Below are positions 1,084-23,140 of a DNA stretch of 23,140 nucleotides, piece by piece. The notes under the pieces are model-generated. The model saw only the letters and a program-made list of their open reading frames with translations, was not told the origin of the DNA and ran no database searches. This stretch comes from a virus. The stretch is taken from the IMG/VR virus record IMGVR_UViG_3300012964_000059, positions 1 to 23,140 of that record, one strand, 5' to 3'. Position numbers and translations under genes: made by a program. The first letter of the stretch is position 1. Each line of letters opens with the position of its first letter.

Positions 1084-1944
1084 ATGGAAAAGAAACAGGA
1101 GAATTACGTTACAGAGTCCGAGGAGGCATTGGAGATGCTAGGGAAAGGGTATAACAACGATCCAATAGCAACCGAATTTGTATCCACCCTTAGCGGATTT
1201 ACACCAGCCCCAGACGTATTGATAACAGAGTATGGATACGTGACCGCACTTGTTTGGGGTCGCGCATGGAGATACTGCCAAATGGCGGATGGTGTATGCA
1301 GATCAGCACTCGAAAAATTGGCTCTTGGTTTGGGGATGTCAGAGCGAACGATTATCAGACACTTGGATACACTTTGTGAAGGCGGGTATTTATTCGACAC
1401 AACCCCAGACCTGAAAAACAAACCTCACATTTACGCCGATACTGGCAAGATTAGAATAAGAGTAAACGTAGAGGCTGGTATGACTTTAAGTCAGGGCAGG
1501 GTGACAGAGAGTCAACGTGGGGGTGACAGAGAGTCAGTTGAAGAAAGTATTAAGAAAGACTTCAAGAATAAGCCTAAAGGCGATTTGGTTGATTTCGAGC
1601 TTTCAAAACTTCCTGCGAAGTCCATCCGTCAGTCAATCCATGAATATTTCAGACTTAACGTCAATTGGGAGACAAAGACGGCTCGGCAGTGGATGGAGTG
1701 GGCAATTGGCGAGAATATTACCTCCTCACAAATTGAAAAGGCGGCAGACCTCTGGAGGGTGGATAAACGCTTCAATTGGCAACATCCAACCCTCAAGGGA
1801 ATATTCGAGAATTGGCAAATACTTAATGACACGCATGAGGAAGTCCGCAAAACAGGCGGAGAACATCCTGAATACAAACCGCTTCCTCCAGACCCCAATG
1901 AAGGACAATATGTTCCTCCACCCCCAAGAAGGAAAACAGCATGA
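1084..1944 (+). CDS. Replication initiator / replisome organizer with winged helix
   Basis: The protein (286 aa) has an N-terminal winged helix-turn-helix at about residues 45-110 (ALEKLALGLGMSERTIIRHL, then a wing CEGGYLF), as in phage replisome organizers. A polar linker follows at about 130-160, then a second helical domain to about 255 and a Pro-rich tail (PPPPRRKTA). It overlaps the helicase gene by 4 bp (ATGA), the usual arrangement of initiator plus DnaB. The linker is encoded by three 13-bp iterons (1481-1536), so the gene probably contains the origin it binds, as in lambda O. The assignment rests on the winged helix, the context and the iterons rather than on clear family homology. 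Confidence 0.65.
   Translation: MEKKQENYVTESEEALEMLGKGYNNDPIATEFVSTLSGFTPAPDVLITEYGYVTALVWGRAWRYCQMADGVCRSALEKLALGLGMSERTIIRHLDTLCEGGYLFDTTPDLKNKPHIYADTGKIRIRVNVEAGMTLSQGRVTESQRGGDRESVEESIKKDFKNKPKGDLVDFELSKLPAKSIRQSIHEYFRLNVNWETKTARQWMEWAIGENITSSQIEKAADLWRVDKRFNWQHPTLKGIFENWQILNDTHEEVRKTGGEHPEYKPLPPDPNEGQYVPPPPRRKTA
1481..1536. repeat. Three iterons, candidate phage replication origin
   Basis: The 13-bp units TGACTTTAAGTCA (1481-1493), TGACAGAGAGTCA (1502-1514) and TGACAGAGAGTCA (1524-1536) share TGAC-N5-GTCA. They are spaced 21 and 22 bp apart, two helical turns, so their faces align. They lie within the linker-coding part of the initiator gene, the location of the lambda-type origin. Confidence 0.6.
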
Positions 1945-3383
1945 TACCCGATCCTTTTGATTCTTTTATTACGGAAGAACAAGCCAAACAGATTTCAGAT
2001 CCAACCCCGTTCGCTTCCTTCGCGGACTTCGAGGTGGAATACGAGTTGATCGGGTCCATTCTTCGCAAGGGAACTATTTACGAGGATGTCATTTCTGCAA
2101 TCAATTCCGATATGTTCCACAATTCAGTTTGTCGTGATTTGTTCAATTCAATGGGGAAAGTTCGTGAACACGGACTTGTTTTGGACGTGATTACAATCGC
2201 AGATCAACTGGAGCGCGATGGACTCCTTTCAACAATTCAATATTCTCCGTTTACAGGACGCACCGCCATCGGGGCGATTCGGGAACGCGGGAACCCCAAG
2301 AATTTCTCGTCTTATGTAGACCTCATCGTGGACTACTGGGCAAAACGTCAACTGGACTATATCGCCCAGACCATGACGCAACAGGCACGTAATGGGCGCA
2401 GGGCCGTTGATATTCTATCCGACACACGCGTAAAGTTTGATGAAATTGACGTTCTAGGGGGAAATCTGTCAACCAATACATATAATTCATCATCACTTGC
2501 ATCTATGGCATACGATCATGCGACAGACGCTGCCAATGGAAAAATTAGGGGTGTTCAGACAGGTTATCTCGATTTGGACAAAATTATTAAAATGCTTGCG
2601 GGAGACTTGCTTCTTGTAGCGGGTCGTCCAGGTCAGGGAAAATCTGCTCTTGTGGATTCCATCGGACTCAACGCCGCTAAAGCTGAAAAGAAAGTTGCAA
2701 TCTTCTCGCTGGAGATGAGTGGAAAACAGGTTGCCACCCGCCTTTTGTCCCAGATTTCCGGGGTTCCAACTCATCGGATTCTTGAAGGAAAGATGACTGA
2801 GTTGGAATGGCCTCTTTATACTCAGGCGGTTGAGATTTTTGAAAAACTACCGATTATGATAAACGACAAGGCGGGCATAACCATTCCTCAAATGAGGACG
2901 GAAATAAAACGAATGTCACGAGACTTGGGGGGGGTGGATATTTGCATAGTGGATTACATTCAATTGATGAAATCCATCAAGAAAGTCCAAAGGCGCGATC
3001 AGGAAATTGGAGAATTATCAAGAGGTCTAAAAGAACTTGGACGGGATTTTGATATTCCAATTCTAGCCGCCGCCCAAATGTCCCGTGCGGTGGAAATCAG
3101 AAGTGAGAAACGTCCTGTTCTTTCTGACTTGCGAGAGTCCGGGGATTTGGAAAATGATGCCGATGTAGTCATGTTCATTTACCGCCCCGATCAATACGAA
3201 AAAGATAGCACAAAACAGAACATTGCAGAAATCATTGTTGCCAAACAACGTAACGGGCCAGTGGGAAGTGCGGAATTGATATTCCGTGGCGCATTGGCAA
3301 AATTTGAAAACGCAATGACGAGAAATTTCAATCCAAATTCCGAACAGAACTGGCAAAATCGCCAAGACATAGGAGATGACTAA
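1941..3383 (+). CDS. dnaB: Replicative DNA helicase, DnaB family
   Basis: This 480-aa protein has the usual DnaB length and layout. An N-terminal helical domain covers about residues 25-150 (EYELIGSILRKG...) and a RecA-like motor domain runs from about 205. Walker A is GRPGQGKS near residue 227, the next motif is FSLEMSGKQVATRL, and Walker B is DICIVDYIQLM near 333-343. Later motifs include AAQMSRAVEIRSEKRP and the arginine-finger region LRESGDLENDADVVMFIYRP. It unwinds DNA at the fork with ATP and is presumably loaded by the upstream initiator. ATG overlaps the initiator stop (ATGA), and its own stop overlaps the next start (TAATG). Confidence 0.95.
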   Translation: MIPDPFDSFITEEQAKQISDPTPFASFADFEVEYELIGSILRKGTIYEDVISAINSDMFHNSVCRDLFNSMGKVREHGLVLDVITIADQLERDGLLSTIQYSPFTGRTAIGAIRERGNPKNFSSYVDLIVDYWAKRQLDYIAQTMTQQARNGRRAVDILSDTRVKFDEIDVLGGNLSTNTYNSSSLASMAYDHATDAANGKIRGVQTGYLDLDKIIKMLAGDLLLVAGRPGQGKSALVDSIGLNAAKAEKKVAIFSLEMSGKQVATRLLSQISGVPTHRILEGKMTELEWPLYTQAVEIFEKLPIMINDKAGITIPQMRTEIKRMSRDLGGVDICIVDYIQLMKSIKKVQRRDQEIGELSRGLKELGRDFDIPILAAAQMSRAVEIRSEKRPVLSDLRESGDLENDADVVMFIYRPDQYEKDSTKQNIAEIIVAKQRNGPVGSAELIFRGALAKFENAMTRNFNPNSEQNWQNRQDIGDD

Positions 3384-10335: not shown

Positions 10336-10378
10336 AACACCTGCTTTGTTTGCTGACTCAAACAAGGTGGGTGTTTTC
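10336..10378. terminator. Hairpin with T-run ahead of the HNH gene
   Basis: AACACC (336-341) with TTGTTTG (346-352) pairs with CAAACAA (359-365) and GGTGTT (370-375), followed by TTC. It may be a terminator for transcripts entering from either side, or an attenuating leader of the endonuclease gene. Confidence 0.45.
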
Positions 10379-10391
10379 TATTGGAGATACA

Positions 10392-10844
10392 ATGAAACTA
10401 ATACCATTAACTCAGGGAAAATTCGCTAAAGTGGACGATGAGGACTACGAATGGTTGACACAATGGAACTGGTATTTTGAGAAAAGAGGTTATGCAGGAA
10501 GGCGCTCTGGAAACAAAATACTTAAAATGCACAGAGAGATAATAAAAACTCCAGACGGGTTGTTTACAGATCACATAAACGGAGACAGAATTGATAATCA
10601 GAAATCAAACTTGAGGATATGTACTATCATGCAAAATACACATAACTCAAGAGTTCGCAAAGATAATCTTTCTGGATATAAAGGCGTGTCGTGGTGTAAA
10701 AGAGAAAGAAAATACCACGTTAGAATTTATTGTAACTACATCAAGAAATCAATCGGATATTTTGATGACGTTATTGAGGCTGCTTTAGCATACGATAAAG
10801 AGGCGAGGAAATTATACGGTGAATTTGCAAGAACAAATTTCTAA
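10392..10844 (+). CDS. HNH homing endonuclease with AP2 domain
   Basis: ATG at 10392 follows TTGGAGA; an in-frame upstream start at 10350 lies in the hairpin. The 150-aa protein has the HNH_3 pattern: MHREII near residue 48, DHINGDRIDNQKSNLRI at about 61-78. A C-terminal AP2-like DNA-binding domain follows (GYKGVSWCKRERKYHVRI, then AALAYDKEARKLYGEFA). Such free-standing endonucleases cut related phages at intact sites and spread by repair. It lies antisense between two tail genes, ending 8 bp from the converging tail gene. Confidence 0.9.
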   Translation: MKLIPLTQGKFAKVDDEDYEWLTQWNWYFEKRGYAGRRSGNKILKMHREIIKTPDGLFTDHINGDRIDNQKSNLRICTIMQNTHNSRVRKDNLSGYKGVSWCKRERKYHVRIYCNYIKKSIGYFDDVIEAALAYDKEARKLYGEFARTNF

Positions 10845-10851
10845 TCTCCTG

Positions 10852-12141
10852 TTACTGGTTACTGGCATCAATTTTACTACGGCCAGTCACGGTTTCCTTG
10901 CCCGTTTCGTCTTTCGCCACATACACAATATCCACTTCCACATTCCAGCGTTGCCCCGCGTACTCCACGGGAAGCAGGTCGCCCATGTCCCAATCTATCC
11001 CGTACAACGATTGAGGTGTGTCTGCACTTCCGGGGGTATTGAGAAAAACAGCGCTCAACTCCTCTTTGGGGGTATTTTGATAGAGGGTTTCATATCCGAA
11101 TCCAGCGAGGTTGGCCTGATCTGGTTCGTTGGATGCGTCCTTGAAAATCTCACTGCGGTTCCAGCGCGAGGAGTATATTCCATCGCTATCCACAATATCC
11201 CATTCACGGCTGTCTCCCCTCCCGAAACCCTTCACAACTGCAGAGTTCGCTTCGTCCAGGTGATTGAGTGAATAATAGGGAGCTTCAAGGTTATTGTTTT
11301 CCACCGAGAAGATCAATCCCGAAGCAGTTCGGTCAATCCCCCGCAACCCTGCGAAGGTTTCAAAGCGAAATCCGAGGTCGGTATGCTGGATGAGTGTCAG
11401 TTCATCGAGAAGCGCAAAGCCCATTTCGTCCAGAATTGGATTATTTGGATTCGCCTCTTCAAGGATTTCCTCCACCAATCCGGTCAATTCCATCGGGATC
11501 ACGTCGAAGTAAATCTTTTGGTTTGCGGTATTGTCGTTTGCGAGCTGGAAGGATGCGTCACGCAGTTCCTTCAAAATATCCAGCACGTTTCTTTCCTGAA
11601 AGTTATAGGTGATGCTGGGTCCGAGTGTCAGGTTTCCCTGAACTAGAAATTCGCCCGCAGGCCACGCGCGGTTCGCTAAAACTACACCATCAGGGTCGGT
11701 AGCGTTGTTGTAAAGCATCTGTTCCCGCACCACCTCTTTCATCATGTCGTCAATGGCCGCAGTCTTGCGGGTATAGGCCGTCCCTGCCGCCTGTACCACA
11801 ATGCGCCGATTGAGCAGGTCTTTGGCGTCGCGTCCATATAGAACCACCATTTGCACCGCATCCGTCTCACGCGTGTAAATCTTATACATACGCAAGAGGT
11901 ATGTCTTTTCCCTCCGCAGGGGAACTCCCTGTTTCGGGGATCGCCACACGTCGATACGCCTGTCGGGTTGGAAGAACGGACTGACTTGTTCCTTGAAGAT
12001 GTTATAGGGAATCCCGATCTCGAACGTGGAAAAACCATTCACGCTTTTCGAGTACGAGAAGAAGGAATAATTCTCAAAACGCAGAATTCGCCTGCCGCCG
12101 TCATCGAGAAGAAAAAATTCATAGGTGGAAGTCTCTGTCAT
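10852..12141 (-). CDS. Tail protein, Siphovirus ReqiPepy6 gp37-like
   Basis: The start at 12141 overlaps the preceding stop (TAATG), giving 429 aa; longer openings lie inside the upstream gene. The sequence (GRRILRFENYSFFSYSKSVNGFSTFEIGIPYN; DVWRSPKQGVPLRREKTYLLR; GRDAKDLLNRRIVV) follows the pattern of gp37-like tail proteins, which act at the baseplate hub / tail tip after the distal tail protein. Here it occupies the same position. It ends with a beta-rich part (VEVDIVYVAKDETGKETVTG). Role in host attachment or tail-tip closure is inferred from family and position. Confidence 0.75.
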   Translation of the reverse strand: MTETSTYEFFLLDDGGRRILRFENYSFFSYSKSVNGFSTFEIGIPYNIFKEQVSPFFQPDRRIDVWRSPKQGVPLRREKTYLLRMYKIYTRETDAVQMVVLYGRDAKDLLNRRIVVQAAGTAYTRKTAAIDDMMKEVVREQMLYNNATDPDGVVLANRAWPAGEFLVQGNLTLGPSITYNFQERNVLDILKELRDASFQLANDNTANQKIYFDVIPMELTGLVEEILEEANPNNPILDEMGFALLDELTLIQHTDLGFRFETFAGLRGIDRTASGLIFSVENNNLEAPYYSLNHLDEANSAVVKGFGRGDSREWDIVDSDGIYSSRWNRSEIFKDASNEPDQANLAGFGYETLYQNTPKEELSAVFLNTPGSADTPQSLYGIDWDMGDLLPVEYAGQRWNVEVDIVYVAKDETGKETVTGRSKIDASNQ

Positions 12142-14588
12142 TAGAAACCTGCCTCGTCTGCCATTGCATCCGCCGACCAGTGGCGGGGAGCATAATAAAT
12201 CCGCATACTTGCCGAAATGTCGTTTTCCATAAGCGCCGCAATCCTGTTTTCTCCGGGTAACAGACTCCACGCCCGCAGATCGCTGCCGGGTAGAATGGCA
12301 TAGGAAATATCTCCTCGAATATTGCTCAAGACCTGTCCCGTCCCGAAATTGATCGTCACTTCCTCGCTGCTGAGGATCTCCAGATCGGCATACACCCGCT
12401 TTTGGGTGGTTTGGTTCTCCAGCCAGCGGAGAGTACACGGCCCCACGATATAAACAATGGGATTGGTCTCCGCCGTTCCCATCACATCCAGCAGGGTGAT
12501 GGAGGCATAGTCGGCAAGGGTGGCGTTTGGCGAAACGAATATATTCCCAGCCTTATCCCACTTCGCCGCGTAACAGGTTGCGGCAACCTCAATGTCCAGG
12601 TTCACCCACGTTGCACCGTTGTACATGGCGACCCCGTTGGCATTGGTGCTTCCAATACGTGTAAATGCGCCTGCCGCAAGGATGTTATCGTGGTTGTCAA
12701 CATCGAGATTGTAAATAACATCGTTCGCACCCGCTCCGAGGTTGTACCAGGCCGAACCGTTCCAGTAGGAGATATACAACATGGGTTGAGCGCCGCTGAG
12801 GGTGAAATCTCCGCCTGCATACAGGCGTCCAGCCATCGTCAGAACCAATTTGCGAACGGTATTGTCGAACCCATCCCCAAGCACAAAGAATTCATTATAG
12901 GCGGTCTCGTACAACGCGACGTAGTTCAGTGCAAGATTTCCGGGGCTGGTTCGTTCGTCTGTGAACGCACCTCCAAGAAATACCTGGGTTCCATCGTTTG
13001 AGATCACAATGGAATACACCGTATTGTTGAGTCCGAGATAGGTTCCCATGTTGTGCCACATGGAACCGTCCCAGCGGGCGCAGTATCCGGCGGTGGTTCC
13101 TCCAGCGGTGGTAAACGATCCGCCCACGTACACATCCCCGTTCGGCGCAACTTTCACGGAGAATGCTGCCGCATTGAGTCCGGTTCCCAAAGCACTCCAT
13201 GCAGACCCGTTCCACTTTGCAATGCGGTTGCACGCCACGCCGCCGATGTTGGTGAAATCGCCAACCACGTATATATCTCCAGTGGGGGATATGGCAACGG
13301 CGTTGATGACCGTTCCCGTGTCCACGCCCGCTCCGTAACCCCGCCACTGGGTTCCGTCCCAATAGGCAATACAATCGCTGTGAATTTGTGGATCAATGGC
13401 TGTCGGCGAATTGTTGGATAGGTTGAAAAGACCGACTGCAATGATCTCTCCCTTCCTGCCAACCTCGAAATCGTAGATGACATTATTCATGCCGCCGTTC
13501 ATGGCACTCCACGCCCCGTTGTATCTCTGCATGGCGTAGTTGATCGTACCGCGTTCACGGAAATTGATCTGTTCCGCCTCGTAGTTATCGTCAAGCAGGT
13601 ACGGCGAAACGGCAAGGAAGCGTATCGGAAACGACTGAAAGAAACGATTCCGCACATCCCAGCTTCCCTCAAGTCCGGCCTCGTAGCGCACGAGACAATA
13701 CACGGGAATGTCACCATCCTTGTATTCGATGGTGAATTCCTGCCCGCCGTTCGTTCTATCGGGTCGAATGATGTCGAAAAGCATCCTCCGCAGGGCGTGA
13801 AGTTTTCGGAGTGACTTGTCGTTCTTGTTGTGCAAATCGGGTGAATTGGCATGGAAGGTGATCGTAACCACACGATCCAGAGTTTTTGTATTTTGATAGT
13901 ACGAACCTGGCGCATCCGCATAAGACTGAATGTTGTTTCTCACCGGAGCGACTCCCAATCCTCCAATGACCGTGATGTACAAATCCTGTTCGTCCCGGTC
14001 ACATCCGGCCAACTCCACCCACCTGCCCCCCTCACGGGTATAGGCGGAGCGGGTTGAAATACTTCCGTGTTCGTAGATATTCCAGATACAACCCGGCTGG
14101 TCTCCGTCGCAATAGGTAGTCGGATATGCTTTTGGTTCCAATTGGAGCCCGTCGGCATAGAAGGTGACGGCCTGTGCGGTCTTATCCGTTTCAACGTACA
14201 CCCGCACGTCATCGCCTCCGTGACACCTTCCAGAAACGTATAAACGTTGCCATCTTTGGTCAGTTAGTGAAACGGTTTCTGAAACCCACTGTTTCCCGGA
14301 AAGATTGTCGATCAAGCGCAGGCGCACTTTTCCAGTCCCGCGCACGTAAACACTTGCGGTAAGGGGGGATTGAATTCCAACCAGCCAGGTCAGGCGATAA
14401 TAGAACCCCTCATACACCACACTTCCATTGGTGATGGATTTCAGGGAGGCGAATCCGAAACGTGCCCGATCCAACGTCCTTGAGATCGTACTGCCAGCGG
14501 CGGTGTATCCCGTCGTATCAAATCGGAGGGACGGATTCTTGATGTAGTTCGTCGTATTGTCCGGTATTAAAATTCTTAGACTTGCCAT
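12141..14588 (-). CDS. Distal tail protein (Dit-like) with CBM and inserted propeller
   Basis: In this 815-aa protein, residues 1-165 look like a CBM4/9-type jelly roll (NYIKNPSLRFDTTGY; YADGLQLEPKAYPTTYCDG). Residues about 170-340 carry the Dit-like domain (RVVTITFHANSPDLH; LRKLHALRRMLFDIIRP; PIRFLAVSPYLLDDN). Residues about 345-690 hold at least six propeller-like repeats (AYWDGTQW, AKWNGSAW, ARWDGSMW, SYWNGSAW with DVYVGGSFT-type strands). From about 705 the Dit C-terminal domain resumes (ADLEILSSEEVTINFGTGQ; AILPGSDLRAWSLLPGENR). The propeller is thus inserted between the halves of Dit. It probably decorates the tail tip for host recognition. Confidence 0.8.
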   Translation of the reverse strand: MASLRILIPDNTTNYIKNPSLRFDTTGYTAAGSTISRTLDRARFGFASLKSITNGSVVYEGFYYRLTWLVGIQSPLTASVYVRGTGKVRLRLIDNLSGKQWVSETVSLTDQRWQRLYVSGRCHGGDDVRVYVETDKTAQAVTFYADGLQLEPKAYPTTYCDGDQPGCIWNIYEHGSISTRSAYTREGGRWVELAGCDRDEQDLYITVIGGLGVAPVRNNIQSYADAPGSYYQNTKTLDRVVTITFHANSPDLHNKNDKSLRKLHALRRMLFDIIRPDRTNGGQEFTIEYKDGDIPVYCLVRYEAGLEGSWDVRNRFFQSFPIRFLAVSPYLLDDNYEAEQINFRERGTINYAMQRYNGAWSAMNGGMNNVIYDFEVGRKGEIIAVGLFNLSNNSPTAIDPQIHSDCIAYWDGTQWRGYGAGVDTGTVINAVAISPTGDIYVVGDFTNIGGVACNRIAKWNGSAWSALGTGLNAAAFSVKVAPNGDVYVGGSFTTAGGTTAGYCARWDGSMWHNMGTYLGLNNTVYSIVISNDGTQVFLGGAFTDERTSPGNLALNYVALYETAYNEFFVLGDGFDNTVRKLVLTMAGRLYAGGDFTLSGAQPMLYISYWNGSAWYNLGAGANDVIYNLDVDNHDNILAAGAFTRIGSTNANGVAMYNGATWVNLDIEVAATCYAAKWDKAGNIFVSPNATLADYASITLLDVMGTAETNPIVYIVGPCTLRWLENQTTQKRVYADLEILSSEEVTINFGTGQVLSNIRGDISYAILPGSDLRAWSLLPGENRIAALMENDISASMRIYYAPRHWSADAMADEAGF

Positions 14589-16915
14589 TAGCCACCTGCC
14601 AATGATGACATCATATTGAAATCAGCGATAACCGGCTCGTGGTTTGCGTTCGTATTGACGGTCTGGCTGAAATAGTTGTTCGTGCTGGAGTTGTTCGTAG
14701 TCTGCGAGGCCGCCGAAGCCATCATTTGCGGAGCCGCCGCGGCGGGCATGACCATTGCTCCCATTGCGGATTGCATGGCCTTTTGAAGCATCGGGATATT
14801 CGACAGGATGCCCTGTGAGAAACCTTCCATTGTCAATTCACCGAACTCCCATGTCACCTGTGATGGAGAACGCATCTTCAACACGGTTTTTGCAGTCGTC
14901 AAGGCCCCGTTAATGGCCGTGGACATGGCGGTTTGCAGTAACGTTACATTACTGAAAATTCCCCCGACAATTCCCATGATGATATTTCTGCCAACCTCCC
15001 ACCAGTTTATATCCGTGGTAATGGCTCTTTGCATCATATTTCCGATTGAAATAATGATCTGTCCGAGGGGTCCAAGTCCCATCAGGATACCATTTATCAA
15101 TCCTCCTATGATCTGGGGGCCAGCGCGCACAAAATCATCAATCAGGCTTCGGATGGTGCTGTTTGAGTTCGTATAGAATTCAAGGAATTTCTGCTTGACA
15201 ATCTCAAAGGCAGTTATGAATCCAGATATGAATATCCCTATGACAACTCCGTAGATAAGGCCAATGATTGCGGCTGTCAGAACGATGATCCCAACTACAA
15301 AAGCCTCCCAGAATGTTACCAGGGTTGCAATGGCGAGTACGATACTTCCCACGAACAGGATGACTCCAAACATCAACTTCGCAATCCAGCCCGCCACTTC
15401 AAGAATAATGGCAAGTTTGGCGAGTCGTTCAATCCACAGGGCAATTTCATCCTTGTTGTCCTTGATCCACTGGGTCAATTTCTCGATGCCGGGAATAAGG
15501 TCTTTGTGTATCCAGTCGGAGAGGCTTTGGTTGGGTTCCCCGCCAAAAGCAGTTACCAGCACGTCGCCTATCGCTCCTGCAAGGGGGAGGAGGGCGATAA
15601 AGACGGGAATCAGGTCATCCCGAATGAACGGGACAAGCACTGTTCCGATCCAGCTCGCTACATCCTTTAAAACAGGCAGGAAGTCGTTCATAAACCAGGA
15701 ACCGACTTTTTCGAGAAGTGCGAGACCGTCTCCTGAAAGCCAGTTGACAAATCCAGTAAAGGCAGGAACCAAAAAGTTGGAAACCCAATCCACTACGTTG
15801 CGTACCCAGTCTACAATATCATCCGAATGGACATCCAGCCATTCGGAAACATTGGTCAAGCTATCCAGTATCATCACTGAAAAACTGCTTGCGCTGGGGG
15901 CAAGGTCGAGTATTTTTCTGACGATGTTGGAAAGAGAATCTCCTATTTTTGTAGCAACAGACGTAAATTGATCCCACCTCGTTTCGCTGGTTAGATTATC
16001 CATAAACTCAGCTACGCGGCCGCCGACAACATCCAATATCGGCTTGACAACATTGAATCCGATGATTGATTTGACAAAATCCTTCAAGTTAGCCGTCGCA
16101 CCTTGAAAAGTTCTTGCCATGTTTTGCGCGGCACCCTGAAAACGTTCTTCCACGATCTGCGAGAAAGCAGTCATGAAGGCATTGACGCCCTCTGTGGATG
16201 TTTTGAATTTATCAAACTCCGCACCAGTCAACCCCACATTTTCCTGCATCCTTTGTAGAATATCGTTCACTGGAACAAACGCGCCGCGAGCCAGGTCGTT
16301 CATTTCACGTTGAGTTACTTTTCCCTGCTGAACCATTTGTCCGAAGTTGACGATAATTCTTTCAATCTCCACATTACCCAAACCCATCCCTGCCGCAAAA
16401 GAGGTGATGTCTTTCGTTAAATCCTGAGCCTCCGTTGCCGCAAAGCCATAGGAACGGGCAAGGGTGAATACATTGGCAATATCCTGATTATCGTATGGAG
16501 TGGTTGCGGCAAGTTTTTGAAGCCACGCAAATTGTTCCTTCGTCAGTTCTATTGATTTTGTCTGAGCATCGTTCAAATCCATCCCGGATTCGACGAGAGA
16601 ATTGAAGTTCAGGCGTTGAAGGCGTAATTCAAGAGTCTGGAATTCGCTTCCCGCTTCGATGGTCGCTGATACCAATTCGCTGATCTGTGTTACCACCCAT
16701 TGCACCGCATCGGCAAGGATTTCCCCCAGCGCATAAGCCAGTGTGTTGGCGATGAAATCCGAAAATCCTGAGAGAATATTTCCCAGGCCGTCGAACGCCT
16801 TGCCCAGCAGTCCAGTGGACGGTATAAGTCCCTGAATACTGCTGTCCATCTTATTCATGCCGCCGAGGAAATCCTGCAAGCCCTCGACAACCGCTTCAAC
16901 ACCTACTTTTTCCAT
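14588..16915 (-). CDS. Tail tape measure protein
   Basis: The 775-aa protein has the typical layout. An N-terminal tape-measure domain covers about residues 90-290 (SGMDLNDAQTKSIELTKEQFAWLQ; FGQMVQQGKVTQREMNDLARGAFVP), followed by amphipathic helices. A hydrophobic block of several possible membrane spans lies at about 505-575 (AKLMFGVILFVGSIVLAIAT...). The C-terminal end has Ala/Asn-rich, low-complexity sequence. It sets tail length and may help DNA cross the membrane. It follows the tail assembly chaperone pair directly, the conserved order, and overlaps the Dit gene as TAATG. Confidence 0.9.
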   Translation of the reverse strand: MEKVGVEAVVEGLQDFLGGMNKMDSSIQGLIPSTGLLGKAFDGLGNILSGFSDFIANTLAYALGEILADAVQWVVTQISELVSATIEAGSEFQTLELRLQRLNFNSLVESGMDLNDAQTKSIELTKEQFAWLQKLAATTPYDNQDIANVFTLARSYGFAATEAQDLTKDITSFAAGMGLGNVEIERIIVNFGQMVQQGKVTQREMNDLARGAFVPVNDILQRMQENVGLTGAEFDKFKTSTEGVNAFMTAFSQIVEERFQGAAQNMARTFQGATANLKDFVKSIIGFNVVKPILDVVGGRVAEFMDNLTSETRWDQFTSVATKIGDSLSNIVRKILDLAPSASSFSVMILDSLTNVSEWLDVHSDDIVDWVRNVVDWVSNFLVPAFTGFVNWLSGDGLALLEKVGSWFMNDFLPVLKDVASWIGTVLVPFIRDDLIPVFIALLPLAGAIGDVLVTAFGGEPNQSLSDWIHKDLIPGIEKLTQWIKDNKDEIALWIERLAKLAIILEVAGWIAKLMFGVILFVGSIVLAIATLVTFWEAFVVGIIVLTAAIIGLIYGVVIGIFISGFITAFEIVKQKFLEFYTNSNSTIRSLIDDFVRAGPQIIGGLINGILMGLGPLGQIIISIGNMMQRAITTDINWWEVGRNIIMGIVGGIFSNVTLLQTAMSTAINGALTTAKTVLKMRSPSQVTWEFGELTMEGFSQGILSNIPMLQKAMQSAMGAMVMPAAAAPQMMASAASQTTNNSSTNNYFSQTVNTNANHEPVIADFNMMSSLAGG

Positions 16916-17203
16916 CTATTTCTTCCTCGGGGTTTTTCGTTTTGCGGCCTTCGCCTCCGCATCAGATTGATGATTTTTCATCGCAATTTCAATGCGGCGC
17001 TGGGCAATGATTATGGCACGTTCCATTGGCTCCATGCCATACCATTGCTCGATACTCTTGTCTCTTTCGATGCGCGCCGAGTGTTCCTCGAATAATGGAA
17101 CCAAATCAGGGGCGAGTTTACGCCACGAGATTCCGGCACTAATCAGGTTATCCACTTCAAGGCGGGTAATGTTCTCTTGAACGTCACCCGCCCTCTTGGT
17201 CAC
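16916..17203 (-). CDS. Tail assembly chaperone, downstream frame (T part)
   Basis: A 95-residue frame opens with GTG inside the end of the preceding gene and lies immediately before the tape measure gene. It is charged and helical (EWYGMEPMERAIIIAQRRIEIAMKNH-like pattern, Lys/Arg-rich end KRKTPRKK). By position it is the T part of a G/GT pair, normally made only as a fusion with the upstream frame through ribosomal frameshifting. The GTG start has no clear binding site, supporting fusion rather than free expression. Confidence 0.7.
   Translation of the reverse strand: MTKRAGDVQENITRLEVDNLISAGISWRKLAPDLVPLFEEHSARIERDKSIEQWYGMEPMERAIIIAQRRIEIAMKNHQSDAEAKAAKRKTPRKK
17184..17189 (-). promoter_or_regulatory. 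Probable +1 frameshift site GGG-TGA-C
   Basis: On the minus strand the upstream frame ends GAG-GGC-GGG-TGA-C. A tRNA on GGG slipping forward by one base onto GGT would continue as GGT-GAC-GTT in the T frame. UGA-C is a weak stop context, as in the bacterial RF2 frameshift site, and AGAGGG just upstream could act as an internal Shine-Dalgarno. A -2 slip would give the same frame. Confidence 0.5.
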
Positions 17204-17735
17204 TCCCAGAAAAGGTTTCAGCGGCGCTTACGTCCGCCTCCTTTACTCCCGAAAGGCGCTTGACATGATCGCCGATCAACTGCATATCCTTGTCGGTGGG
17301 AGCGGCGATGTAGAGAACCCAAGCAATGTAACGCCACGCCGGGCTGTCACTCACAACCGGAAGTCCCAGGGCTTTGTAATCCTTGATCCAAGTGTCATCC
17401 TTCGGATCGGGAACGCCCTTTGGTTTGCTTTTCAATTTCGTTCCAAGACCGATCAACGCGTTCAGCATGGCGGAGTTGTACTCCATTTCCCATGCCTTCA
17501 CGCGCTTGATGTAGTCCGGGTCGTCCGGGTTTTCCATCGTCCTCCCCATCGCCTCCATAAATACCTGCGGGGGTTCCGGGCGTTCTTTGGCGGTCATGAT
17601 GCGGATCAACATGCTTGGATTCGCCTGATGGACGTACAGTTCAACTCCGGTGGAAAGGGTGATGTAATCCTTCTCACCCTTTTCCACCTCGTCGATCTTC
17701 CTTGCAACCGATTTATCTGCTTTCGAGATACTCAT
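17184..17735 (-). CDS. Tail assembly chaperone, upstream frame (G part)
   Basis: The 183-aa protein lies between the tail tube and tape measure genes, the fixed position of the phage tail assembly chaperone. The N-terminus (about 25-50: KDYITLSTGVELYVHQANPSMLIRIMTAKE) has the beta-strand pattern of these proteins. A helical middle includes YNSAMLNALIGLGTK and the acidic C-terminus ends SGSDQEGG. AGAGGAAG precedes the ATG. With the frameshift the fusion would be about 270 residues. These chaperones coat the tape measure protein during tail assembly. Confidence 0.75.
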   Translation of the reverse strand: MSISKADKSVARKIDEVEKGEKDYITLSTGVELYVHQANPSMLIRIMTAKERPEPPQVFMEAMGRTMENPDDPDYIKRVKAWEMEYNSAMLNALIGLGTKLKSKPKGVPDPKDDTWIKDYKALGLPVVSDSPAWRYIAWVLYIAAPTDKDMQLIGDHVKRLSGVKEADVSAAETFSGSDQEGG

Positions 17736-17766
17736 TGCTTCCTCTGCTTCCGATACGATTCTCTTG

Positions 17767-19272
17767 TTACGCGCCGCTCATCTTGAGCGCAATGCCAGCG
17801 GTTCCATTGGACGCCAGACCAACCGCAAAGGCGGTATTGGCGTACTTTGTGCAACCGCGTACTTTACTGAGATAGGAATTCGCAACAGCGGTTCCCTTCT
17901 TGCCCTGCGGAAGTACAACCCACTCATTGCCAGCGGTGATGGTGCGAAGAATGTAGGACTGACCACCGGAACGGGCGGCGATAAATCCCTCCGCCTCGGA
18001 TACGAATTCAATATCGTCGATGCGCGTGTAGGTGGCGGGCAGGCCAATCTGTGTCCAGGTAACGCCTGCGTTGACGGTCAACCAAAGTTTTCCACTACCG
18101 CCAGCACCTTCGCCGACCAGCCATGTCTTTGCATCCCACATCCAACATGCGCCCAGGTTGACACCCACGGAAGGACCTGTCACGGTTTCCCATGTGGAAC
18201 CGCCATTGGATGTATACACCACGGCATTTGAATTTCCAACCGTAAGGACATTCTTGGTATCAAGCGCATGGACGGCATTGAGATTTTGTGTGGTCTCCAC
18301 TCCGGCATCCTGCACTTCCACACTGACCTTGAAGTTCTTCGAGAAGTAGATATATCCGCCGTTGCCGACGATCCATATGTGGCGAACGTCCGCAACAGAC
18401 ATGGCGTTTGGATTCTTGCCAAACACAAAGCCGGTGTTGACCTGATTCCATGAATTTGCGTTCGTGTAAACTTCCTCAATATCAGTCCAGTGGATTTCGT
18501 TGGCGGTGTTCGAGATCAATACCAAAGCACTTCCGACAACCGCAGAATCGACGATGTTCTCATTGGAGAACAGGGTGGAAATGGTCTGCGAGGAGAACGA
18601 TTCTCCGCCATCCTCCGAGTAGAGCAGGGAGGGTTGCGTGCCAGGGGTTGCACTTGCGCCCGCCATTGTCATCAAGACCTTCGAGCAGGTGTCCGGGCAG
18701 TCGTCACAGTTCTTCCCGTTGTATACGTCCACGGTGTAGATTTCCCGTGTGGTGGAGGCGGAACCGATCTGATCCTGACGCATGTACAGATATTCCCAAT
18801 AATCCTCGGCGGTCATGTCAACCGCTTCATTGGTTGGATTGTTCTCATCCAGACCGTATGCGCCGAAGTTCTCGTATCCATGCCCTGAGATTTTCCCGTC
18901 CGGGAAATATACCCACTTTTCGCCGCCTTCGGTGAAGTCCTGCGGATTTCCGCATTTCCCGGAAAGGGCGAAGATGTCCACGCGGCACTGCTTGTTCTTC
19001 CACTCCAAAAGGATGGATTTCTGGGCGGTGGAACGAATTCCGATTGCAAGCGTGGCGCGTTCCCGTTCAGCCGCTACCGTTCCAACCTGAATGTCACGGT
19101 TGAAGTTGTTCGGGTCGGGTACGCTGATCTTTGTTTCCTCGCCAATGGTAATGGCGGGATCGTCCGAGAACTTCCCCAGCGCGAGGAATTGCGGAGATTT
19201 CGAGGGATGCACGCCGCCCTCGACGTACCAAACGCGCTGGTTGATTGCAGTAAGTTGTTGCAAGTTAGTCAT
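17767..19272 (-). CDS. Major tail tube protein fused to Ycf48-like propeller
   Basis: A very strong AGGAGGT precedes the ATG, fitting a highly made protein. Residues about 1-190 look like a tail tube domain (ALGKFSDDPAITIGEETKI; ERERATLAIGIRSTAQKS; WVYFPDGKISGHGYENF). From about 200 on there are repeated blades of the Ycf48/BNR kind (LLYSEDGGESF, WIVGNGGYIYFSKN, VVYTSNGGSTWETV, LWLTVNAGVTWTQIG). Four cysteines lie in the linker (CDDCPDTC). The propeller would stand out from the tail tube surface in many copies, perhaps to bind host or environmental surfaces. Confidence 0.8.
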   Translation of the reverse strand: MTNLQQLTAINQRVWYVEGGVHPSKSPQFLALGKFSDDPAITIGEETKISVPDPNNFNRDIQVGTVAAERERATLAIGIRSTAQKSILLEWKNKQCRVDIFALSGKCGNPQDFTEGGEKWVYFPDGKISGHGYENFGAYGLDENNPTNEAVDMTAEDYWEYLYMRQDQIGSASTTREIYTVDVYNGKNCDDCPDTCSKVLMTMAGASATPGTQPSLLYSEDGGESFSSQTISTLFSNENIVDSAVVGSALVLISNTANEIHWTDIEEVYTNANSWNQVNTGFVFGKNPNAMSVADVRHIWIVGNGGYIYFSKNFKVSVEVQDAGVETTQNLNAVHALDTKNVLTVGNSNAVVYTSNGGSTWETVTGPSVGVNLGACWMWDAKTWLVGEGAGGSGKLWLTVNAGVTWTQIGLPATYTRIDDIEFVSEAEGFIAARSGGQSYILRTITAGNEWVVLPQGKKGTAVANSYLSKVRGCTKYANTAFAVGLASNGTAGIALKMSGA

Positions 19273-19281
19273 GGGAACCTC

Positions 19282-19575
19282 CTAAACAGTTTCCTTTTCA
19301 AACTCTGAAAATTTTTCAAGTATCAATTGAGCGTCCACGTTATATGCTTCCTGCAACGCTCCAATCAGGACATGGGGTTTGCGGGCATCCTCATATTTCA
19401 GGATTCCGCGTTCGTATAAAATGTTGTGCAGGCGGGTCGCAAATGGTTCAGGGAGACCCAGTGCGTCCACAAGCCCTTCGACGGGTCCGATAATGATGTA
19501 TGCGCCTTTTTGTTCATCTGGAGATACATAGGCCTTGTATTTTCTTTCTCCTTGCATTACTTCCTGTGTCTCCAT
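19282..19575 (-). CDS. Hypothetical tail-region protein, 97 aa
   Basis: ATG at 19575 follows AAAAGGC and lies 4 bp after the upstream stop; the longer start at 19623 would overlap that gene by 44 bp. The protein is alpha/beta (KYKAYVSPDEQKGAYIIIGPVEGL) with a helical C-terminus (ARKPHVLIGALQEAYNVDAQLILEKFSEF). It lies next to the tail tube gene, so a head-tail joining or tail completion role is possible, but no family is recognised. Confidence 0.6.
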   Translation of the reverse strand: METQEVMQGERKYKAYVSPDEQKGAYIIIGPVEGLVDALGLPEPFATRLHNILYERGILKYEDARKPHVLIGALQEAYNVDAQLILEKFSEFEKETV

Positions 19576-19579
19576 TGGG

Positions 19580-19813
19580 TTATGCCTTTTCAATCCAATG
19601 CCATGTTCCAGGCTTTGAACCATCCGCCAAGAATGGAAGATGCTGATTGAAAAATATTCCAGTCGGATTTAGAACACAAAGAGAAACAATTCCCTGGTCA
19701 ACATCCTCAATTTCGGTAATGACTGCCGCTCGGTGAACATTCTGAGGAAATTCACCTTTTGGAGTTCCATACGCAACATAATGAACCATTCTTCCTACCG
19801 TTAGACCTTCCAT
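19580..19813 (-). CDS. Conserved small phage protein, 77 aa
   Basis: The pattern VGRMVHYVAYG, HRAAVITEIED, VSLCVLNPTGIFFNQ, GTWHWIEKA is that of a small protein widely found in tailed phages, of unknown function, usually near structural genes. Its predicted fold is a small beta barrel. GGAG precedes the ATG. It starts 10 bp after the connector gene ends. Confidence 0.75.
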   Translation of the reverse strand: MEGLTVGRMVHYVAYGTPKGEFPQNVHRAAVITEIEDVDQGIVSLCVLNPTGIFFNQHLPFLADGSKPGTWHWIEKA

Positions 19814-19822
19814 GATATTCTC

Positions 19823-21037
19823 CTATTTATTTACTCTTACACCTGAATGCTGTATAGTTCTGTACGCGTACAAAGCGCCTTGAGACGTGCCAAGACGGTT
19901 CGCCGCAAGTTCGGCGGTCATTCCGCCCTCTTCCTGCGAAGAAAATGCGCCGTCCCTGCGCCATTTGTCTATGAACTGATTGACGTTACTGCATCCGCAA
20001 ACTGGACGTTCAAACTTTGATGCGGCGAAAAAGGCAATTGCGTATTTCCATTGCGGAGAAAGTTCAACGTAGGGACGGGCCAGGGAGTTATCACGATACC
20101 CTGAGTAATACCAAAAACGAACCTGGTCTGGTTCTCGACATGCTGAAAATTCCGCCGAATCAAATGTCTGGTCGGTGGAGTTCCATGAAGCAGGAGCAGG
20201 CACCGCAAAACCAAGACGGTGATCTCGCAGATGGAAACAAGCTGCCTGGGAACTAAATTGGCACGCCACGCACGTTCCACAACACCCAACAGGTTCGCTC
20301 TCCCACATTAATTGCGCTTGCGTAGCCGGGTCGTTGTAGACACGATAAATGTCAACCGTCGTCTCGAAATTTCCCGCCGTTTCTGCGTCCAGCGGATCGG
20401 GATTGAGTGTTTCCAGTTTGTTTGCCGCAACGATCTGCCAAATCTTGAAAGTAACAACTGCATTTGCGCCGGAAAGTGAAACCTTGATGGGTTTGATCTC
20501 CCAGCCGTCATCCCCGCTCTTTGCCGGATAGTACGCACGGATTTCGTTTATGTCCGTCACCGTGGTTGGGACGGTAACTGTGCAGGTCTCCTGAAACGTA
20601 TCGGAATCTGTGTCGGATCGAACCACTGCCGCTCCTGCCTGAATAACAGCCTTTGCCTTCACACCCCCAGAGATGATGTATCCCTTCCCCAACTCCACAG
20701 ATTTCAATTGATACCGTGGATTGATCCCGTACAGGTTGAATGATTCAGGGAACGCGGGTCGGGGGTAGGGGAGACGTTCGTCAACCGTCCAGTCAGGAAT
20801 AAGATTGAACCCGATTTCCCGTGCGATTTCCTGCTCCGCCTGCTGAATTGCCATTGCAATTGTGTCACGGCCTACACGGTCTGAATGCTGCCAGTCACTT
20901 TGGAAAAAAATATCGCCACACGTATTGTTACGGCGGAACGTAGAGGATGACAGTTGATTAAACGCCAAAGGATCGAGTCCGATAATTTGAGACCATTCAT
21001 CCAGACTGAGCCATGTTCGTATGTCGGAACGAGCCAT
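19823..21037 (-). CDS. Probable neck / head-tail connector protein
   Basis: This 404-aa protein starts MARSDIRTWLSLDEWSQIIGLDPLAFNQ, a pattern reminiscent of phage connector proteins, with helices containing IQQAEQEIAREIGFNLIPDW. The middle is beta-rich. A Cys-rich stretch (CCGTCVACQFSSQAACFHLRDH) and CGCSNVN near 355 suggest metal binding. The C-terminus is helical (GGMTAELAANRLGTSQGALYAY). Its place before the tail tube gene supports the connector role; the exact family is not certain. It overlaps the upstream zinc-ribbon gene by 41 bp. GGAAGGAA precedes ATG. Confidence 0.5.
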   Translation of the reverse strand: MARSDIRTWLSLDEWSQIIGLDPLAFNQLSSSTFRRNNTCGDIFFQSDWQHSDRVGRDTIAMAIQQAEQEIAREIGFNLIPDWTVDERLPYPRPAFPESFNLYGINPRYQLKSVELGKGYIISGGVKAKAVIQAGAAVVRSDTDSDTFQETCTVTVPTTVTDINEIRAYYPAKSGDDGWEIKPIKVSLSGANAVVTFKIWQIVAANKLETLNPDPLDAETAGNFETTVDIYRVYNDPATQAQLMWESEPVGCCGTCVACQFSSQAACFHLRDHRLGFAVPAPASWNSTDQTFDSAEFSACREPDQVRFWYYSGYRDNSLARPYVELSPQWKYAIAFFAASKFERPVCGCSNVNQFIDKWRRDGAFSSQEEGGMTAELAANRLGTSQGALYAYRTIQHSGVRVNK

Positions 21038-21314
21038 TTGCAGTATTCCTTCCGCGCTTTTGGATCTCCTCTGCCCGCCGCCTCGTTTTTACAAAATAGT
21101 ACCAAAACGATGGATGGGACGGTGGTAAATCCTCGAGCCGACGAATAGAGTCGTCCAACAACTTGGACGAGTACCAGCATGGCTTCCATAGCTGACAATG
21201 TGGACATTCATACCCTTCAACTGTGTAAATATTATCCAGTGGCCTTCTGGATAAGTTTCTCCAATCCACCATAACCAAATTTCGGCAGTTTGGACACAGG
21301 TCAGGCAGTTCCAT
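20997..21314 (-). CDS. Zinc-ribbon protein, 105 aa
   Basis: The ATG at 21314 lies exactly 6 nt after TATAAT (21326-21321), so leaderless expression supports this start. The longer frame from 21344 would start inside the palindrome. LCPNCRNLV and YECPHCQLW form a treble zinc-ribbon (CxxC-x~30-CxxC), followed by a helical basic part. It is the first gene of the tail operon here, where a normal phage would have capsid and portal genes upstream. Function is unknown; nucleic acid binding or regulation is possible. Confidence 0.6.
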   Translation of the reverse strand: MELPDLCPNCRNLVMVDWRNLSRRPLDNIYTVEGYECPHCQLWKPCWYSSKLLDDSIRRLEDLPPSHPSFWYYFVKTRRRAEEIQKRGRNTANGSFRHTNMAQSG

Positions 21315-21320
21315 ATCGCA

Positions 21321-21326
21321 ATTATA
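21321..21326 (-). promoter_or_regulatory. -10 box of the tail-operon promoter (leaderless)
   Basis: TATAAT on the minus strand is followed by TGCGAT and then ATG. The palindrome at 21338-21351 overlaps the place of the -35 element, so its binding protein would block or replace -35 contact in this direction while facing the plus-strand -10 at class II spacing. Confidence 0.5.
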
Positions 21327-21337
21327 CTTCAAAAGTA

Positions 21338-21380
21338 GTGACATTCGTCACGTTTCAAGGGTAGGAAAATAAACTATAAT
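21338..21380 (+). promoter_or_regulatory. Palindrome-activated promoter, copy 4, facing the cassettes
   Basis: GTGAC-ATTC-GTCAC (21338-21351) is followed 23 bp later by TATAAT (21375-21380), the same spacing as at 4307 and 6680. It faces the first cassette gene (21453) with a leader of about 65 nt. It would serve as the cassette promoter in place of the Pc promoter that normally lies in an integrase gene. Confidence 0.55.
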
Positions 21381-21452
21381 TTATTTGGTTAGATTTATAG
21401 TGTACATTCCGCTTAAGCAATAGTTCTACCGCCATTTTCAAAAGGAGTAGTC

Positions 21453-21701
21453 ATGTCTGAAAAAGTTGAAATCGAAATTGAGTTGTTAAAAGATTTGGTT
21501 GATGCCGCTGGCTATGTCTCTACCTTCTACACTATGTTTCTAAATCACGAAACGCCAGAAGATTGTGGGGATTTGAATGCAACTGAATATCTCGCCAGTG
21601 AAGCGTCGTCTATTGCCGAACGTGGTCGCGCGGTCTTAGAGGCGGTAGAACAAAGCGTGCAGCCGACTTGGGGTAGGCTCCGGCAAAAAAGCGAAGTCTA
21701 A
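21453..21701 (+). CDS. Cassette gene 1, helical acidic protein, 82 aa
   Basis: AAAAGGAG precedes ATG. The protein is mostly helical and acidic (KVEIEIELLKDLVDAAGYVSTFYTMFL; ATEYLASEASSIAERGRAVLEAVEQSVQ). The last 17 residues (from EQSVQ on) are encoded by the attC site at 21645. The same AVExSVQ codons end the partial gene at the left edge, so the two share either ancestry or an equivalent attC join. No function is recognised; toxin-antitoxin-like or phage-interaction roles are common for such cassettes but unproven here. Confidence 0.7.
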   Translation: MSEKVEIEIELLKDLVDAAGYVSTFYTMFLNHETPEDCGDLNATEYLASEASSIAERGRAVLEAVEQSVQPTWGRLRQKSEV

Positions 21702-21771
21702 GCCCAAGCAGAAATCCGTCAAATCAGTTGGTCAGCGTCCCGCCCCAAGCGGGTAACGCGAGCCGTTGGCT
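21645..21771 (+). repeat. attC site (long type), after cassette 1
   Basis: The left arm has GTAGAACAAAGCGTGCAG and the right arm GGGTAACGCGAGCCGTTGGC, with the core GTTGGCT (765-771), which fits GTTRRRY. It is the most diverged of the right-hand sites. The preceding gene reads into its left arm. Confidence 0.75.
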
Positions 21772-21791
21772 GGCTAAAGCAAAGGAATCTT

Positions 21792-22217
21792 ATGGCTAGA
21801 AATATGTCTTTCATGCTCACCACTGAGCAAGTCCGAAAGCAAAAGAAAACTGTCACACGCCGTTTGGGTTGGGATTTCTTGAAAGCGGGTGACGAATTGA
21901 ACGCATGTGTAAAGTGCATGGGTTTGAAGAAAGGTGAAAAGATTGAGCGCCTTGCAAAAATCCGTGTAGTGAATGTGCGTCGTGAAAGGCTTTACGACAT
22001 CACGCCCGATGATGTTATTCGTGAAGGCTTTGAAGGTCAGATTGTAGAATGGTTTATTGATATGTTCATGCGCGAGATGGGTGTGCCATCATCAACTGAA
22101 GTCACACGCATTGAATTTGAATACATCAATCCATCTACGCCTGCCAACAAAGCGTGCAGCGGATTGGCTTTGCCGTCCGCGAAATTGTCAGGTCTGGCGC
22201 AAGTCGCCAACCGCTAA
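21792..22217 (+). CDS. Cassette gene 2, ASCH-domain protein
   Basis: The protein (141 aa) starts MARNMSFMLTTEQVRKQKKTVTRRLGW and contains KCMGLKKGEK, VVNVRRERL, REGFEG and VTRIEFEYI, the pattern of ASCH-like proteins common in phages and mobile elements. These bind RNA or modified nucleosides. The domain ends near residue 115; the rest (TPANKACSG... to VANR) is encoded by attC. So the gene has no stop of its own before the recombination site and borrows the attC stop (AACCGCTAA). AAAGG precedes ATG. Confidence 0.8.
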   Translation: MARNMSFMLTTEQVRKQKKTVTRRLGWDFLKAGDELNACVKCMGLKKGEKIERLAKIRVVNVRRERLYDITPDDVIREGFEGQIVEWFIDMFMREMGVPSSTEVTRIEFEYINPSTPANKACSGLALPSAKLSGLAQVANR

Positions 22218-22232
22218 CGCAAACCGTTAGGC
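22142..22232 (+). repeat. attC site (short type), after cassette 2
   Basis: TGCCAAC (142-148) and GTTAGGC (226-232) are the core ends, with CAAAGCGTGCAGCGG on the left and CCGCTAACGCAAACC on the right. The 91-bp length and interior are close to those of the site at 22927. Confidence 0.85.
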
Positions 22233-22256
22233 GCTTCGTGGCGCAAAGGAGAATAT

Positions 22257-22565
22257 ATGTCAATTGCAGTAGTCCGTTACGATTCTACAACCGGAATAAT
22301 TATCGAAAAAATTGGTGATGGTTTTATGTCTGTAAGTTCTGCAAACCAATACCGGAACTCTCTACCAATAGTTCCCGGAACTATGACAAAACTTGAACAG
22401 AGTTCAACACCCGTTGTCGGATATGCTCCACCTGTTCACGCCGAATCTGCTGAGGATGCGCCAGTTGCTAGAAATCAATTTGCCGATCCTCCGTTTTATA
22501 TCGGCATGATTATATGTGCATTGTTGATTGCGGGTATTGTGTTCTTTTTGCTCAATCCCGCATGA
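22257..22565 (+). CDS. Cassette gene 3, C-tail-anchored membrane protein, 102 aa
   Basis: AAAGGAG precedes the ATG. A polar N-terminal part of about 75 residues (AVVRYDSTTGIIIEKIGDGFM...) is followed by one strong membrane helix near the C-terminus (YIGMIICALLIAGIVFFLL), leaving NPA at the end. The protein is thus tail-anchored with the bulk in the cytoplasm. It ends before the attC, with its own TGA. No family is recognised. Confidence 0.7.
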   Translation: MSIAVVRYDSTTGIIIEKIGDGFMSVSSANQYRNSLPIVPGTMTKLEQSSTPVVGYAPPVHAESAEDAPVARNQFADPPFYIGMIICALLIAGIVFFLLNPA

Positions 22566-22570
22566 TACAC

Positions 22571-22696
22571 GCCTAACAAAGCGTGTACCCGACAAGTGCC
22601 TGCTGTCGCGCTGAAATCATATCTGGCATACGTCAGGGTGAACCTAGCTTATGTGCTAATTGTGGCGGCACTTGCGGGTAACGCAAACCGTTAGGC
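22571..22696 (+). repeat. attC site (long type), after cassette 3
   Basis: GCCTAAC (571-577) and GTTAGGC (690-696) are perfect complements and fit RYYYAAC/GTTRRRY. The inner arms ACCCGACAAGTGCC and GGCACTTGCGGGT pair, with a covarying change from GCGG/CCGC in the short sites to CCCG/CGGG here. This supports selection for the folded attC. The interior can be read as a zinc-ribbon-like peptide (CCRAE...LCANCGG) but is separated from the upstream gene by a stop. Confidence 0.9.
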
Positions 22697-22720
22697 ACTT
22701 ACTTTCAAAAGGAGAATCGC

Positions 22721-22921
22721 ATGATACGCAAATGTTATGCAGTCGTAAAGGTTACGCTTGTCCGCCAAGTTGAATTTGAATTGGATGACGATGACCCTGC
22801 GCTTGACGCAGAATCCGAAGCGGTCAGGTTCGCAGAAAAAGAATTTCACATTACGGTTCGAGAAGATGACGAACCGCAAGATGAAGAAGTCGAAGTGCTT
22901 GAATGTGATTGGGCAGATTAG
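22721..22921 (+). CDS. Cassette gene 4, acidic protein, 66 aa
   Basis: CAAAAGGAG precedes ATG. After a short basic start (MIRKCYAVVKVTLVRQVEFEL) the protein is very rich in Asp and Glu (DDDDPALDAESEAV; REDDEPQDEEVEVLECDWAD). The predicted fold is beta-alpha-beta. High acidity in small phage or cassette proteins is seen in DNA-mimic inhibitors of host defence, but this is only a possibility. The gene ends 6 bp before the attC. Confidence 0.7.
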   Translation: MIRKCYAVVKVTLVRQVEFELDDDDPALDAESEAVRFAEKEFHITVREDDEPQDEEVEVLECDWAD

Positions 22922-22926
22922 AACGT

Positions 22927-23017
22927 GCCTAACAAAGCGTGCAGCGGACTTGCTTACGGGCTGGCGAAATTGGCTCGTCTTGCACAATCCGCCAACCGCT
23001 AACGCAAACCGTTAGGC
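22927..23017 (+). repeat. attC site (short type), after cassette 4
   Basis: GCCTAAC (927-933) and GTTAGGC (23011-23017) are perfect complements. The arms CAAAGCGTGCAGCGG and CCGCTAACGCAAACC match the site at 22142 with an interior of similar length. Confidence 0.9.
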
Positions 23018-23026
23018 GGCTGTGCT

Positions 23027-23140
23027 GTGCGGGTGGTGGAATTGGCAGACACAACCTCGAAGGCAAGTTCATGGCTTGCGTCGCCCACATCGTAAACCCG
23101 TAGGGTGTGGGGGGCGGAGGTCGGGAGCGTTGAAGGTTCG
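23027..23140 (+). tRNA. 5' part of a tRNA-Leu-like sequence, cut by the window end
   Basis: GTGCGGG, TG, then GTGGAATTGGCAGACAC reproduces the acceptor stem start and D arm of bacterial tRNA-Leu very closely, and GAAGGTTCG at the end looks like the start of a T arm. Between them ACCTC (23054-23058) can pair with GAGGT (23117-23121), but the enclosed 58 nt far exceed a 7-base anticodon loop. The gene would thus hold an insertion or be a decayed tRNA. The 3' end lies outside the window. It starts 10 bp after an attC core, so it would be a tRNA inside a cassette. Confidence 0.4.

Follow-up and report, generated by a model that had tools for sequence, protein, structure and literature searches.

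The window, that is, the whole stretch of 23,140 bases analyzed here, is an IMG/VR virus contig. It is probably part of the genome of a tailed phage that has a site for docking integron cassettes (a phage attI) but encodes no integrase, and that would use the IntI of its host in trans. The cassette array at the right end of the window starts at the 23-bp attI-like site TGTACATTCCGCTTAAGCAATAG (21401-21423, plus strand, 0 mismatches to the array-start motif), and the cut in G/TT falls between 21423 and 21424. The first cassette begins at 21424, directly after the last G of the site, a point absent from the initial annotation. The bases that follow 21423 (TTCTACC) match the R'' of attC site s3 over 8 bases. 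As in an attI, the first cassette is joined at the G/TT of a conserved non-attC site. There is no intI beside the site in the window, and among the phages with the site, only G004 shows this adjacency.

The consensus of the array-start site in phages is TGTACATTCCGCTCAAACACTAG followed by TT. It is not attC sequence, and it recurs at the boundary of the first cassette. The motif TGTACAYTCYRNWYAWVHMMTAGTT, which was built from array starts, occurred in the window with 0 mismatches, while the best matches in 15 shuffles of the window had 5-7. A blind scan of IMG/VR with this motif alone returned 18 stretches. In the loci that were fetched, an attC lay no more than 1.5 kb away for 16 of the 18 and for the window; for the other two (G022 and G004), the array was located downstream in the full record. 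When near variants were counted and duplicates were collapsed, 17 distinct phage contigs had the site, the window included, and the 23 bp stand behind unrelated upstream sequences in them. In most phages, an ORF ends no more than 20 bases before the site; such a gene is lacking in the window, where promoter prediction also gave no consensus promoter near the array start. In G003 and G005, the arrays begin at differing sequences, with only the last bases in common. No intact site was found at the lone attC of G015 (13.4 kb) or at the array of G034, and no empty attI-like site was found. The site was present in 1 of 396 Anaerolineae genomes, with no attC found at that place.

The attC sites of the window are real. 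They were detected with our own motif-plus-pairing scanner, which scores conserved arms and their pairing, and 60 dinucleotide shuffles of the window on both strands served as the null. The maximum score of the shuffles was 32. On the plus strand of the window, s1 (5-127) scored 38, s2 (291-419) 31.5, s3 (21645-21771, from R'' GTAGAAC to R' GTTGGCT) 33.5, s4 (22142-22232) 38, s5 (22571-22696) 40 and s6 (22927-23017) 40.5. Five of the six sites are therefore clear. The site s2 is of a divergent subtype (GTGTCCACCCGAC / GGTAATGT) and lies at the edge of noise by score alone; it has a cassette-end match of 7 bases and counterparts in other phages, with 74% identity to an attC-like region of G004 (44096-44226) and 72% identity to G019. 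The initial annotation had proposed four attC sites on the right and two more beyond the phage genes. The four R'' starts at 21645, 22142, 22571 and 22927 were verified, with the last R' ending at 23017, and the other two sites are s1 and s2 at the left end.

The R''/R' and L''/L' arms of the sites pair, and it is the pairing that is conserved rather than the sequence. The CCCG/CGGG L arms of s5, already noticed as covarying, are a genuine compensatory change. All four variable L-arm bases were paired in 100 of 113 related sites, which had been picked without regard to pairing, in 12 combinations; with shuffled partners, the number was 20 (maximum 32). The start of each cassette was also compared with its own R''. 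In the window, the matches were 8, 3, 5, 6 and 7 bases, and the 3 alone is weak. The mean over 75 phage pairs was 5.3 bases against 1.4 when shuffled, and in host arrays it was 6.8 against 1.5. Such a match is the mark of cassettes that once were circles, and both ends here derive from the same circle, the start being complementary to the cassette's own R''. The scanner scores, the L-arm covariation and the cassette-end matches together indicate that the elements of the window are integron cassettes. With at least two attC sites and no intI nearby, the window holds a CALIN.

All cassettes of the window lie on the plus strand. Cassette 1 (21424-21765, ends matching over 8 bases) contains the gene 21453-21701 (82 aa) and most of s3. 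Its DNA is 85% identical to that of a cassette in the phage G022, and the homology (21430-21661) begins near the core site. In cassette 2 (21766-22226), the gene 21792-22217 (141 aa) reads through s4 and ends with the TAA in the L' box as its stop codon. Cassette 3 (22227-22690, 5 bases) carries the gene 22257-22565, which encodes 102 aa with a C-terminal hydrophobic segment, and cassette 4 (22691-23011, 6 bases) carries the gene 22721-22921 (66 aa). After the G/TT of s6, cassette 5 starts (23012-23140); it is cut by the contig end, and no gene was called in it. Its tRNA-Leu-like start (GGTGGAATTGGCAGACAC) had raised the suspicion of a tRNA, and none was found by ARAGORN or Rfam. On the left, there is a cassette end (1-121) in which the attC loop (30-117) encodes a zinc ribbon that ends in ICCTDCDTEVSEDDAACPKCGLRNPANR and a stop, followed by a cassette that reaches to the G of s2 and shows no clear gene (122-413, ends matching over 7 bases). 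The claim that a small plus-strand gene with its own ribosome binding site precedes each right-hand attC held, as an AAAGGA-type site was present in 4 of 4 genes. The four proteins matched no protein family.

The window encodes a tape measure, minor tail proteins and a DnaB helicase. The tape measure and the minor tail proteins are hallmarks of Caudoviricetes; terminase and portal are absent from the fragment. No head genes were seen in the window record, and it was therefore taken as a phage fragment. The replication genes (an HTH protein and the DnaB helicase; 1084-3383, plus strand) lie downstream of the left array. The tail operon (10852-21344, minus strand) has its first gene at 20997-21344, divergent from the array, and gene annotation confirmed that it stands next to the array as described. 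Upstream of the gene 879-1082 and adjoining it, a very strong RNA hairpin is predicted at 739-862 (-53.5 kcal/mol, z -9.0, 13-bp perfect outer arms); in G015, a similar leader, ending in AAGAAGGTGATTTTTTATG, precedes the early genes. An HNH/AP2 homing-endonuclease-like gene (10350-10844) lies within the tail operon on the opposite strand, and its relatives are located elsewhere in other phage records.

The tail operon is syntenic with that of a family of uncultivated phages, and in this family, attC arrays were located within the genomes of two relatives, G015 and G034. In G015 (55,960 bases), one array lies at 27.6-29.8 kb and a second one at 44.1-44.8 kb, directly upstream of a homologue of the replication gene 1084-1944 of the window. 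In G034 (61,500 bases), the array at 49.8-52.0 kb separates the tail genes g19823 and g19282, which adjoin in other relatives. Unrelated phages (G001, G003, G004, G005, G008, G017 and G022), in which genes for terminase, portal, tape measure or endolysin were seen, also contain arrays of the same type. The array of G017 and its flanks were found again in three records from different metagenomes. The search of related phage genomes that had been proposed was thus positive in G015, G034 and several other phage families. The initial annotation had left it open whether the phage carries cassettes or a prophage sits in an array; the arrays inside the genomes of relatives favor the former, and the phage-type start site speaks against the latter. 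Searches of the GenBank phage collection with the DNA of the array, with the tail protein and with the small protein described below gave no match. In a further virus record, G013 (L104:10218-17422), 26 tRNA genes form an array with a single attC inside.

A gene of approximately 65 codons ends just before the attI-like site in at least nine phages. A blind search of IMG/VR with this small protein returned 10 loci; an attC array followed in 10 of 10, and in 9 of 10 the site stood 1-37 bases after the gene. The small protein is absent from the window. G034 has a truncated copy before its array, and G004 has a frameshifted copy. There was no match in 298 Anaerolineae genomes, and the same search recovered 5 of 8 phage records. 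Nothing in Pfam was above threshold. The structural model consists of two helices at low confidence (pLDDT 71), and a fold search with this low-confidence model gave nothing significant. Since the fold search and Pfam were empty, a ribbon-helix-helix identity stays a guess from sequence.

The phage cassettes are compact. Their median spacing was 350 bases, against 788 in host arrays. Among phage attC sites found via one attC consensus, 30 of 77 were read through by an ORF that has a ribosome binding site and for which the TAA in the L' box is the stop codon; the corresponding numbers for the other two frames were 2 and 9. In hosts, read-through was seen at 11 of 136 sites overall and at 1 of 55 in long arrays (Fisher P ~1e-7, for sites that are not fully independent). 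The attC loop of the read-through genes encodes the tail of the protein. By a strict pattern, zinc ribbons were encoded in eight phage attC sites, including s1 of the window, and in 0 host sites (0.2 expected from shuffling, maximum 2). Loops that code in frame for C-terminal zinc ribbons or hydrophobic helices were observed at 30-117 of the window, L090:11528-11656 and L104:14890-15015, and they are enriched in phages. No report of coding attC sites was found in an open-access literature library. Among 80 cassette proteins that were scanned, including the four of the window, there were N6/N4- and Dam-type DNA methylases, MT-A70, a C5 methylase, a Mom-like DNA modification protein, PAPS-reductase-like proteins, an RNA ligase and an ASCH protein; most of the 80 had no family. 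The many DNA methyltransferases and the Mom-like modifier would fit interchangeable counter-restriction genes.

The attC type points to a host group. The exact 19-mer of the right arm was found in 30 genome contig stretches, mostly from Anaerolineae and other Chloroflexota. The right-arm pattern occurred in 34 of 298 Anaerolineae genomes, with many copies in several, while the reversed control gave scattered single matches. Several Anaerolineae genomes that carry this attC type have a full-length IntI. Because the attC type is mostly in Anaerolineae and other Chloroflexota and several Anaerolineae genomes with it encode IntI, the host of the window phage probably belongs to this class of Chloroflexota. 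Homologues of the tail proteins were present in only 2 of 396 Anaerolineae genomes at ~30% identity, and this gives no direct link to a host.

The last 16 bases before the cut were then compared between host attI sites beside intI and the best phage site. The matches were 15/16 in G039, 14/16 in G058 and 14/16 in G041, and weaker in G134 (13/16), G049 (12/16) and G045 (10/16). Against shuffled cores, which were likewise scored by the best-matching of the 18 phage sites, P was at most 0.004 for G039, G058 and G041; over the six hosts it ranged from below 0.001 to 0.006, except for G045 (0.24). The first 8 bases of the phage site have no such likeness to host attI, and the TGTACA part at the 5' end is phage-specific. 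The 3' part is most naturally read as a predicted integrase-binding core, and TGTACATT would be a phage addition. The phage arrays share the attC consensus and the 3' core of attI with the sedentary chromosomal integrons of Anaerolineae. In contrast to the phage arrays, intI adjoins attI in those integrons, the cassettes are longer and the attC sites are rarely read through. The attI1 of class 1 integrons also joins the first cassette as G/TT; it is longer than the phage site and adjoins intI1. The phage site differs from it in being short, in its TGTACA part and in the lack of intI in most of the phages.

During infection, the IntI of the host would act in trans on the phage attI. It would recombine free or host cassettes, with the attC folded single-stranded, into the phage attI, and could then shuffle or excise the cassettes of the phage. 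The cassette genes might be expressed by transcription that enters over the gene before attI or from a nearby promoter; the ORF ends close before the site in most phages hint, more weakly, at entering transcription. The small protein may bind TGTACA and regulate or help recombination, which is a guess.

The window record, itself a fragment, had no match to TIGR02249, in agreement with the reported lack of an integron integrase, and so it does not hold the intI gene of a complete integron. Most of the other phage records searched had no full-length IntI either: none was found in the window, G001, G003, G005, G006, G008, G010, G016, G017 or G022. G004 (44,297 bases) is the exception. It has a divergent full-length IntI-like gene (L076:859-1908) that precedes the same attI-like site by 0.7 kb and also lies upstream of an attC array, and the record also contains terminase, portal, endolysin and a phage integrase. 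A phage IntI family was considered for this gene and rejected, as the search of IMG/VR found only the gene itself, which is ~30% identical to host IntI and sits on a long branch. G004 may represent a phage integron that is complete, or else a prophage that sits in an array.

The phage family could encode its own IntI elsewhere, with the window fragment merely lacking it. The partial record with its missing head genes and the IntI-like gene of G004 upstream of the same site agree with this, and since the phage records are metagenomic and may be incomplete, an intI outside the recorded sequence is possible. We consider this explanation unlikely, because the larger site-bearing records of 80 kb (G017), 60 kb (G001) and 56 kb (G015) have no full-length IntI and because the IntI of G004 matches only itself in IMG/VR. 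The insertion of a prophage into a chromosomal integron array, in which case the flanking arrays would be host DNA, has a much lower probability. It is true that attC sites of one orientation lie to either side of the phage genes, and the arrays at both contig ends of G004, beside its phage integrase, would fit such an event for that record. The start site in the window, however, belongs to phage arrays and not to host arrays; in relatives, arrays lie within the phage genome and can even separate tail genes; the first cassette is whole and not split by an insertion; the cassettes are half the host length (350 against 788 bases) and often read through attC; and no phage integrase is present in the window.

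IntI is known to insert cassettes off target, and by this route or by illegitimate recombination, the array could have become a passive passenger. The G034 array and the 13.4-kb attC of G015, which have no intact attI-like site, are in line with this account. We judge it as improbable as the prophage, since the same 23-bp site recurs at the first-cassette boundary in 17 contigs behind unrelated upstream sequences, and G034 itself keeps a truncated copy of the attI-linked small protein. Repeats of attC can cause misassembly, but a chimera of host array and phage contigs is hardly conceivable when the G017 array and its flanks appear in three records from different metagenomes and the boundary motif recurs across many phages. 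Loading by the host IntI at a phage attI thus stays the probable explanation for the window. We lean, with caution, to a broader interpretation of these sequence patterns, namely that they reflect a dedicated phage integron without an integrase. Its phage-specific attI (TGTACA plus a host-like core), often with a companion protein, would exploit host IntI to load compact cassettes, in which attC hairpins code for C-terminal tails such as zinc ribbons.

The remark that cassette arrays on phages are rarely described was fair. Qi et al. 2023 (PMC9892861) reported 17 phage attC clusters without integrase (CALIN), of which some attC work with IntI1, noted methyltransferase cargo, and suggested that cassettes enter phages by off-target or illegitimate events. 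The presence of attC sites on phages is therefore not new. Like the reported arrays, ours lie on tailed phages, lack intI and contain DNA methyltransferase cassettes. They differ from those described there in that many uncultivated phages are involved, the attC is of the Anaerolineae type and the start is a conserved attI-like site. A conserved phage attI with a companion gene, and coding attC sites, are not described in the passages of PMC9892861 considered here.

A conserved phage attI would provide an entry route for arrays that were earlier known as attC clusters without a clear way in. It leads to a testable prediction, namely that phages receive interchangeable counter-defence genes through the action of host integrases. 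To our knowledge, there are almost no cultured phages of Chloroflexota. Coding attC sites would show that a recombination hairpin has been put to use as protein. If the proposal is true, bacterial cassette pools and phage genomes would form one exchange system.
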